Origin: Mesorhizobium sp. AR10
Lineage (GTDB): Bacteria; Pseudomonadota; Alphaproteobacteria; Rhizobiales; Rhizobiaceae
Direction: 5' to 3'
NCBI RefSeq assembly: GCF_024746795.1
Contig: NZ_CP080524.1
Span: forward strand, 806,001-870,000
Length of the DNA: 64,000 nucleotides
Positions within the stretch are counted from its first letter, which is position 1, and every line of letters starts with the position of its first letter. The notes under the pieces are model-generated. The model had not been told where the DNA came from and did no database searches. It saw only the letters and a list, made by a program, of their open reading frames with translations. This document shows, in pieces, positions 54,267-56,363 of this stretch. A program made the translations under genes and the position numbers.

Positions 54267-55358
54267 TCAGGCCGCTCCCTGCCGGCTCTCCACCATGGCG
54301 CGGCGCGCAGACCGGCGCCACTCGACCGCGCCGGCAAGACCGTGCAGCACCGTCTCGGTGGTTGCCCAGTCGATGCAGCCATCGGTGATGCTCTGGCCAT
54401 AGACGAGCGGCTTGCCTGCAACAACGTCCTGCCGGCCGGCGACGAGATTGCTCTCGATCATGACGCCGATGATGCGTTCGTCGCCCGCTGCCACTTGGCT
54501 CGCCACGTCGGCCGCCACCTTCGGCTGGTTCTCGGGCTTCTTGCTGGAGTTGGCGTGGCTGACATCAATCATCAGCCTGGGCGCAACACCTATCCGGGCG
54601 AGTTCCGCCGAGGCGACAGCAACGCTGGCCGCATCATAGTTCGGCTGAACGCCGCCGCGCAGGATGACGTGGCAATCCTCATTGCCGGTGGTCGTCGCGA
54701 TGCCGCTGCGCCCGCCCTTGGTCACCGCCATGAAGTGATGCGGCTGGGCGGCCGATTTCACCGCCTCGGCGGCGATCCTGAGATTGCCGTCGGTGCCGTT
54801 CTTGAAGCCAACCGGACAAGAGAGGCCCGATGCCAGTTCGCGGTGGATCTGGCTCTCGGTCGTGCGCGCGCCGATGGCACCCCAGGCAACGAGGTCGGCG
54901 ATGTATTGCGGCGTGGTCATGTCGAGGAATTCGGTTGCCGCCGGCAGGCCGAGATTGTTGACGGCGGACAGCACATTGCGCGCCATCCGCAGCCCCTTGT
55001 CGATGTTGAAGCTGCCGTCGAGGTCGGGATCGTTGATCAGGCCCTTCCAGCCGACCGTCGTGCGCGGCTTCTCGAAATAGACCCGCATGACGATCTCCAG
55101 CCGGTCGGACAGGGTTTCGCGCAGCGCCGCCAGACGGCTGGCATAGTCAACGGCCGCGACCGGATCGTGGATCGAACACGGGCCGACGATGACGAGCAGT
55201 CGATCGTCGGTGCCATTCAAGATAGCGTGGATTGCGTTGCGTGACGCGCTGACGGTGCGCGTCGCCGTCAGCGTGCGCGGTATCTCCCGCATCACTTGGT
55301 CCGGCGTACTCAGTTCTCGGATTTCCTTGACCCGAAGATCATCTGTGGTGGTCAACAC
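54267..55358 (-). CDS. aroG: DAHP synthase, class I (AroG type)
   Basis: A 363-residue enzyme condensing phosphoenolpyruvate and erythrose 4-phosphate, the first step of aromatic amino-acid synthesis. Markers are LLVIVGPCSIHDPVAAVDYA, RVYFEKPRTTVGWKGLINDP, GARTTESQIHRELASGLSCPVGFKNGTDGN and MIDVSHANSSK. I start it at GTG 55358, with AGGAG 9 bp upstream. A leader peptide and terminator upstream form an attenuator. It is an unrelated housekeeping gene within the inositol region. Confidence 0.92.
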   Translation of the reverse strand: MLTTTDDLRVKEIRELSTPDQVMREIPRTLTATRTVSASRNAIHAILNGTDDRLLVIVGPCSIHDPVAAVDYASRLAALRETLSDRLEIVMRVYFEKPRTTVGWKGLINDPDLDGSFNIDKGLRMARNVLSAVNNLGLPAATEFLDMTTPQYIADLVAWGAIGARTTESQIHRELASGLSCPVGFKNGTDGNLRIAAEAVKSAAQPHHFMAVTKGGRSGIATTTGNEDCHVILRGGVQPNYDAASVAVASAELARIGVAPRLMIDVSHANSSKKPENQPKVAADVASQVAAGDERIIGVMIESNLVAGRQDVVAGKPLVYGQSITDGCIDWATTETVLHGLAGAVEWRRSARRAMVESRQGAA

Positions 55359-55398
55359 GGCTTTCTGCTCCTGATTGGGAGACCTGCCGGCTGAAAAC

Positions 55399-55424
55399 AA
55401 AAAAAGCCGCCAGGTCTGGCGGCT
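55399..55424 (-). terminator. Attenuator terminator upstream of aroG
   Basis: On the minus strand AGCCGCCA-GACC-TGGCGGCT is followed by seven T residues. The 5' arm can alternatively pair with CTGGCGGC inside the leader-peptide coding sequence (55471-55478), giving an antiterminator, while that segment can also pair with ACCGCCA at 55502-55508. This gives the classic 1:2, 2:3, 3:4 alternatives. Confidence 0.85.
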
Positions 55425-55448
55425 GTTCGGATTTTGATGCTGCAATCT

Positions 55449-55529
55449 TCAGATCGAGCGCAATCCTCCCGCCGCCAGCGAGCTCCTAAAGTACCAATAC
55501 GTGGCGGTCAGGTTGATCATGAGGTTCAT
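55449..55529 (-). CDS. Aromatic leader peptide of the aroG attenuator
   Basis: A 26-codon open frame with consecutive Tyr-Trp-Tyr-Phe at codons 11-14, ending in TGA at 55449-55451. A ribosome stalled at these codons for lack of charged tRNA-Tyr, -Trp or -Phe would cover segment 1 (codons 7-10), let segment 2 (codons 18-20) pair with segment 3 and prevent the terminator. Thus aroG should be transcribed when any aromatic amino acid is scarce. A second ATG at codon 4 could be the true start, since a GTGACA-N17-TATATG promoter-like element overlaps the first ATG. Confidence 0.82.
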   Translation of the reverse strand: MNLMINLTATYWYFRSSLAAGGLRSI

Positions 55530-55568
55530 ATAGCCCAAGCGGAGGCGTTTGTCACGCCTCTGATGATG

Positions 55569-56363
55569 CTACTCCGGAGACGCCCCCGCAACACTCTGGT
55601 CATAGTCAACCAGCGACCCGGTCATGACGCCCGACTGCGGGCTGACCATGTAGCTGATCAGCCGCGCCAGCTGGTCCGGCTTGACCAACTGGCCCATCGG
55701 CTGCGCCGCTTCCGCCGTTGCCAGCCAGTCGTCAGGTGCGTCGTGCCATTTCTTCTGAACGATGTCTTCGCCCTCGGTATCCATCCAGCCGGGCAGTACG
55801 GCATTGCAGCGGATGCGGTTGAAGCGATAGGCGTTGGCGACATTCTTGGTCAGCGTCATCAGAGCGCCCTTGCTGGTCGAATACGGCGTCAGGAAGGACT
55901 GGCCGGCATGCGCCGACATCGACAGAACGTTGACGATCGAGCCCGGCGCCTTGCGTTCGAGCAGATGCGCGACCAGGCCCTGCATCAGGAAGAACGGTCC
56001 GCGCACATTGGTCGCGAAGATCGTGTCGAAAAGCTCTTCGCTGGTCTCGACCAGAGAGCCGCGCGCGGAGGTCGCGGCGGCGTTGACCAGCGCATTGACG
56101 GTGCCGAAATGGGCGATCGCGGTTTCGACGGCGCGCTTGCAGTCGGCCACCTTTGAAACGTCGGCGCTGATGAAAATGGCATCGACGCCGGATCTCTTCA
56201 GAGCGGCTAACGCCTTGTCGCCTTTCTCCTGCGAGCGGCCGATCAGCGCCAGCGCGCGGCAACCCTCATCGGCCAGCGCCTCGGCAACGGCAAAGCCGAT
56301 GCCTTGCGCGCCGCCGGTGACGATGGCGCGTGTCTCAGAATTGCGACCGGCTGAACCGCTCAT
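55569..56363 (-). CDS. Short-chain dehydrogenase/reductase
   Basis: A 264-residue classical SDR: cofactor motif VTGGAQGIGFAVAEAL, LVNAAATS in place of NNAG, catalytic Ser in VLSMSAHAG and the YxxxK pair in TPYSTSKGAL. GGAG lies upstream of the ATG. It is probably co-transcribed with iolG 12 bp upstream and may oxidise an inositol or polyol. The exact substrate is not evident. Confidence 0.88.
   Translation of the reverse strand: MSGSAGRNSETRAIVTGGAQGIGFAVAEALADEGCRALALIGRSQEKGDKALAALKRSGVDAIFISADVSKVADCKRAVETAIAHFGTVNALVNAAATSARGSLVETSEELFDTIFATNVRGPFFLMQGLVAHLLERKAPGSIVNVLSMSAHAGQSFLTPYSTSKGALMTLTKNVANAYRFNRIRCNAVLPGWMDTEGEDIVQKKWHDAPDDWLATAEAAQPMGQLVKPDQLARLISYMVSPQSGVMTGSLVDYDQSVAGASPE

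Follow-up and report, generated by a model that had tools for sequence, protein, structure and literature searches.

Attenuation control of DAHP synthase genes has precedents. In Corynebacterium glutamicum, the aroF operon for DAHP synthase is preceded by a leader, aroR, that carries Phe-Tyr-Phe and, according to the available sections of PMC11802643, responds to Phe and not to Tyr. The aroR leader resembles the aroG leader studied here in that a short peptide with aromatic codons precedes a DAHP synthase gene and stalling raises transcription, as it would in aroG, but it belongs to another phylum, has a Phe-Tyr-Phe run, and is compared with our leader by description alone. The trpL attenuator of Sinorhizobium meliloti, which is stated to be leaderless in the excerpt of PMC10117765, has a rhizobial host and a leaderless ORF of the kind predicted for aroG; its target, however, is trpE, and this comparison too is by description alone. 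In Acholeplasma, a uORFC-13-1 motif with at least one Phe codon is predicted to act by attenuation in front of aroF, and the same source mentions an attenuation hypothesis for E. coli aroF (PMC8632094, in part). An aroF element has also been predicted in Shewanella (PMC2659441, in part). The Acholeplasma and Shewanella elements are like the aroG leader in their predicted attenuation of DAHP synthase, but they come from other lineages and are predictions only. Predicted attenuators of operons with tyrA are listed in the accessible portion of PMC1173090.

The earlier note had called the arrangement, one leader by which a DAHP synthase gene responds to Tyr, Trp and Phe alike, little described. 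Since attenuation control of DAHP synthase has precedents, this was partly wrong. No description of the proteobacterial aroG leader was recognised in the literature searched, an earlier prediction being possible (Vitreschak 2004, Panina 2001, Neshat 2014). The attenuator survey PMC2965389 contains no mention of aroG, aroF, DAHP, aromatic, phenylalanine or Rhizob, and the excerpts of PMC12125101 and PMC4448311 hold nothing on an aroG leader. At gathering thresholds, Rfam returned a tRNA alone on the window (the whole 64,000-nucleotide stretch of Mesorhizobium sp. AR10 DNA that was analysed) and no match for the leader. A looser search of 11 related loci, up to E 1, gave two matches, neither of which reached gathering. 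The Phe_leader model (RF01859) stayed under its gathering cut-off, the best of the 11 related loci (L013) scoring 30.5 bits against 55. Because DAHP synthase precedents exist, no Rfam family matched at gathering and no description was found, the aroG leader is an addition to the known DAHP synthase attenuators, notable for its spread and its mixed codons.

The leader region lies on the minus strand, as do all features of the window given with coordinates below, between an SDR gene that ends at 55569 and aroG (54267..55358), which starts with GTG at 55358 and encodes a type I DAHP synthase of 363 aa (TIGR00034, PF00793). The best named AroG matches are from Mesorhizobium, at 96, 93 and 90% identity. 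A probable ribosome binding site of aroG, AGGAG (55368..55372), was recognised by eye. Since the oxidoreductase gene 3' of aroG is convergent, aroG looks monocistronic. The regulatory codons TAT TGG TAC TTT (55488..55499) of the leader ORF encode Tyr-Trp-Tyr-Phe, and these four consecutive aromatic codons, like the four pairing segments, read as the earlier note had given them. Segment 1 (ACCGCCA, 55502..55508) is a possible partner of segment 2 (CTGGCGGC, 55471..55478), which makes up the core of the antiterminator 5' arm. The second part of that arm is GGATT (55462..55466), with AATCC (55429..55433) as its partner. Segment 3 (AGCCGCCAG, 55416..55424) is common to antiterminator and terminator, and segment 4 (CTGGCGGCT, 55405..55413) is the terminator 3' arm. 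The intrinsic terminator, described earlier as an 8-bp stem and tetraloop followed by seven Ts, is present just before aroG: AGCCGCCA-GACC-TGGCGGCT (55424-55405) forms 8 pairs around a tetraloop, the seven-T run (55399..55405) starts with the last stem base, and the hairpin with its T run (55424-55399) reads AGCCGCCAGACCTGGCGGCT. A leader ORF, a terminator and a pathway gene, here that of a type I DAHP synthase, are among the features of a ribosome-mediated transcription attenuator, as is an antiterminator exclusive with the terminator; the latter is seen here as covariation across 54 sequences, with some measures within the range of shuffles.

The window holds a single ORF of 12-40 codons with at least four aromatic residues in five, counted on both strands, and this ORF is the aroG leader with its terminator. 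When the window was shuffled 20 times with its dinucleotides kept, aromatic ORFs of this kind numbered 0.65 on average, and those with a terminator, as called by a rule devised for the present analysis, 0.0. A chance ORF is ruled out by these shuffles and by the conservation across genus and order described below. Folded as a whole, the leader is more stable than shuffled sequence by a small margin (z -1.95; 6 of 200 shuffles equalled or bettered it), which is weak evidence on its own.

Counted from the ATG at 55529, as had been done in the earlier note, the leader has 26 codons (MNLMINLTATYWYFRSSLAAGGLRSI) and the aromatic codons are numbers 11-14. This first ATG sits inside the TATATG of a candidate -10 box (CTATATG, 55527..55533). 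Among 110 loci inspected in the genus, the second ATG (55520) was found in all 110, and an ATG no more than 12 nt upstream of it in 92 but not in the other 18. Because the first ATG overlaps the -10 box and is missing in 18 of 110 loci, where the second is in every one, we judge the first unlikely as a start. The ORF itself is real; its translation most likely begins at the second ATG, which gives a leader of 23 codons (MINLTATYWYFRSSLAAGGLRSI, 55449..55520) with its stop codon at 55451-55449.

The candidate -35 box (GTGACA, 55550..55555) is separated by a 17-nt spacer from TATATG (55532-55527). A TATATG is found no more than 16 nt ahead of the start codon in 92 of the 110 genus loci, the rest having variants such as CTATAGG. 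The distance from the first base of TGACA to the leader ATG is 34 nt in 98 loci and 35-36 nt in 8; in the other 4 no TGACA was seen. A promoter scan against the E. coli sigma-70 consensus was without a match. Since the 17-nt spacer sets the expected transcription start (+1) on the A of ATG 55520, the leader mRNA is likely to be leaderless. The promoter spacing thus fits the earlier suggestion that a promoter overlapping the first ATG may produce a leaderless mRNA.

We hold with high confidence that the locus is a ribosome-mediated transcription attenuator of aroG with mixed aromatic codons. RNA polymerase would start at or next to ATG 55520, and translation would begin with transcription. With ample charged Tyr, Trp and Phe tRNA, the ribosome would pass the aromatic codons and cover or clear segment 2. 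With segment 2 covered, the 3:4 terminator would form and transcription would stop before aroG. If charged tRNA for one of the aromatic amino acids runs low, the ribosome would stall on codons 8-11 of the 23-codon leader and leave segment 2 free to pair with segment 3 through the core CUGGCGGC:GCCGCCAG, lengthened by GGAUU:AAUCC. This pairing would block the terminator, and aroG would be transcribed. Shortage of any one of the three aromatic amino acids should suffice, since the attenuation model implies it.

The gene aroG is carried by 136 of 146 genomes of the genus (E 1e-50) and is absent in 10, which rules out a rare recent acquisition for the genus. Upstream regions were inspected for 110 of the 136 aroG-bearing genomes: that of the window, 29 others, and 80 out of a further 106. 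An aromatic leader ORF with a terminator was found at all 110 loci, which represent 85 distinct sequences. The aromatic core reads YWYF in 69, FWYF in 40 and YRYF in one. An alignment of the leader across Mesorhizobium aroG loci, which had been proposed as a check on the aromatic codons, found them kept throughout: Tyr and Phe codons occur in all 110 leaders and Trp in 109, the exception being a change to Arg. Segment 1 keeps CCGCC in 106 of the 110 loci while its Thr changes to Ser.

An AroG search yielded 80 named loci, 57 of which have a terminator-like hairpin upstream according to a first script. Under looser rules 59 of the 80 were counted, and these with the window make up a set of 60 leaders. 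All 60 have both Tyr and Phe; 43 also have Trp and 17 are without it. The cores differ between lineages, with FYWYF-Y as an example from Bradyrhizobium, Y-YWYF in Devosia, FYFYFFWY in Burkholderia and relatives, YFYF in the Massilia group and FYFWYY in Xanthomonadaceae; relatives of the leader occur in beta- and gammaproteobacteria. Three counted loci (L021, L024 and L053) have only three aromatic residues in six. The other 21 named loci were left out of the 60-leader statistics. Four of them (L019, L038, L040 and L065) have an aromatic ORF that failed the start or terminator filter, and 17 have no ORF with at least four aromatic residues in six, some of these having weaker or unrelated ORFs. 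Nine of the 17 belong to Enterobacterales or Vibrionales, groups whose DAHP synthase genes are reported to be regulated by TyrR and TrpR (PMC5343134, in part), and one (L041) has only 52 nt of upstream sequence.

For the analysis of RNA pairing we used an alignment (A1) of 54 leaders, a subset chosen to be diverse: besides the leader of the window it contains those of 47 of the 59 named loci counted above and of 6 genus loci. The terminator pairing 3:4 was paired in 96.5% of cells, with 32 cells changed on both sides, both values lying beyond all 500 shuffles; the number of pairs with both partners changed, 3, was not clearly beyond shuffles (42 of 500), and its 8 further pair types (89 of 500) were within their range. 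The antiterminator core 2:3 was paired in 86.8% of cells with 18 cells changed on both sides, again both beyond 500 shuffles; both partners had changed in 4 of its pairs (2 of 500), and there were 9 further pair types (100 of 500, within shuffles). When GGAUU:AAUCC was included, the extended antiterminator was 75.6% paired, both partners having changed in 57 cells and in 9 pairs (the latter in 2 of 500 shuffles), and had 23 further pair types (205 of 500, not beyond shuffles); the GGAUU:AAUCC helix alone was paired in 57.8% of cells. Sliding the partners against each other lowered the paired share for terminator, antiterminator core and extended antiterminator alike. Relatedness alone can lift sequences above such shuffles. 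That segment 3 keeps its partners in each of two mutually exclusive pairings would, however, be hard to explain without a real structure. In the window, the antiterminator fragment folds with -29.2 kcal/mol and the shorter terminator with -14.5 kcal/mol; the antiterminator was the stronger of the two in 7 of 8 leaders folded and the weaker in L013.

The compensatory changes expected for the four segments are therefore supported by covariation for the terminator and the antiterminator, and a conserved 1:2 hairpin is not. Segments 1 and 2 are paired in 58.2% of cells of A1, a share reached or exceeded by 489 of 500 shuffles, and a slide of +3 gives a better value (62.3%). The individual 1:2 duplex was better than shuffles at 0.05 in 15 of 48 leaders (mean z -0.96), the window (z -3.03) being among them. 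This arm may be used locally without defining the leader family; where it is missing, a ribosome covering segment 2 would serve instead.

Codon choice in the leaders departs from that of the genes they precede. Phe is encoded by TTT in 159 of 197 leader cases versus 55 of 371 cases in the aroG genes of the same loci, and Tyr by TAT in 73 of 149 versus 129 of 366. A distance of 11 nt separates the end of the last aromatic codon from GGCGG in 32 of the 60 leaders. Codon choice has been argued to set attenuator sensitivity (PMC1183508, in part); keeping the aromatic run unpaired would be an equally good reason for the codons chosen.

We built a covariance model, R1, from the 54 leaders of A1. One of these, from a Candidatus Burkholderia symbiont (L042:1814-1946), was kept although its leader ORF, once past the aromatic run, departs from the usual frame and continues across the terminator, possibly a case of leader decay. 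In the AR10 genome, R1 had a single match at E up to 1, namely the window's leader at 98.7 bits. Among 297 genomes of the order, R1 matched in 43. A type I aroG is present in 39 of the 297 (E 1e-60), and the leader lies directly upstream of it in 39 of 39, as compared by eye from coordinates and with some genera already represented in R1; the remaining four matches lie before tyrS.

Among 398 genomes of the phylum, R1 matched in 52. Of these matches, 45 lie directly before an AroG match, two (L249 and L251) before a DAHP synthase recognised by eye, two before pheA (L252 and L254) and two before pheS (L253 and L255), and for one (L250) the downstream gene was not assigned. The genes downstream of L252 and L253 were identified by family test and those downstream of L254 and L255 by eye. 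The known Phe attenuators of these genes are pheL-pheA and pheM-pheST. They are like the aroG leader in having a Phe-rich leader and a terminator and in matching R1, if weakly, but they have other targets and mostly Phe codons, and score 34.9-41.5 bits versus 98.7 for the window. Their recovery by R1 suggests a common design or descent. AroG-family proteins (one to three matches) occur in 225 of the 398 genomes versus a leader match in 52, and most carriers at the scale of the phylum are therefore without a leader match; many of these carriers come from one heavily sampled family (f81), and the strict search filters lose weak matches. On these comparisons, some lineages commonly have the leader, and in others it is either missing or goes unrecognised.

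A Tyr-rich leader ORF (FVYFYYV) with a terminator stands directly upstream of tyrS at four loci (L222, L223, L224 and L225) of one Hyphomicrobiales family. These leaders, such as MIKTAATFVYFYYVTSIPAAA, are likely to be tyrS attenuators; that of L222 is at about 232-350. The identity of tyrS was established by family test for L222 and by eye for L223, L224 and L225. A pattern for this stretch was found in 19 of the 61 genomes that represent the family and in 2 of 7 genera, those beyond the four loci being pattern matches only. The AR10 genome also encodes a type II DAHP synthase (L111, G000:C2:3861677-3862987), and the 600 nt inspected upstream of it contain no aromatic leader ORF. The pair of type I and type II enzymes may separate basal from regulated flux. 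In the type I protein of the window (54267-55358), the residue aligned to position 211 of E. coli AroG, where E. coli has Ser, is Ala. The alphaproteobacterial loci and several from Xanthomonadales likewise have Ala at this position, L029 has Gly, and the others listed have Ser; nothing on its meaning for feedback was found in the available part of PMC9529685.

The same-strand SDR gene ends only 49 nt before the leader ATG, and the hairpin might be a mere terminator of that gene, with the ORF in between due to chance. We regard this reading as extremely improbable: promoter-like boxes between the SDR stop and the ATG are kept in the genus, the aromatic leader stays with aroG in all 39 aroG-bearing genomes of the order sample, and shuffled sequence yields no aromatic ORF with a terminator. 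A more substantial alternative, which we rate as possible though on balance doubtful, accepts the attenuator and holds that one amino acid, for example Phe, counts in practice, the other aromatic codons being passengers or minor contributors. It draws on the C. glutamicum AroR case, where a Phe-Tyr-Phe leader serves an operon that responds to Phe alone of the two (PMC11802643, in part), and on the loss of Trp from one of the 110 genus leaders (YRYF) and its lack in 17 of the 60 wider ones. If Trp were a passenger, however, its retention in 109 of 110 genus loci, alongside Tyr and Phe in 110, would have to be accounted for.

In Sinorhizobium meliloti, rnTrpL and peTrpL are described as acting in trans. 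That the terminated RNA of the aroG leader, some 120 nt long, or the peptide encoded in it might do likewise, besides attenuation in cis, we consider unlikely. The layout is that of trpL, a small ORF, predicted here to be leaderless, with a terminator (PMC10117765, in part), and the last ten leader codons are almost invariant in the 110 genus loci. These codons are equally invariant at synonymous sites, however, for which the antiterminator and its inner hairpin would account; a constraint on the RNA therefore suffices for the leader tail, and conservation at the level of the peptide need not be invoked. We attach similarly little probability to the broader proposal that alpha-, beta- and gammaproteobacterial members of the family form an OR gate for the three aromatic amino acids at the entry of the shikimate pathway and in addition release a terminated leaderless transcript or 23-residue peptide that works in trans, as rnTrpL/peTrpL does.

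As a ribosome-mediated attenuator, the aroG leader would bring to several proteobacterial lineages a control of DAHP synthase by attenuation that is known from an actinobacterium. DAHP synthase genes of E. coli are under TyrR and TrpR, as given in the available text of PMC5343134; here, aroG is probably controlled by an RNA switch. The aroG leader offers a clear test of whether one leader reads three amino acid pools at the start of the pathway.
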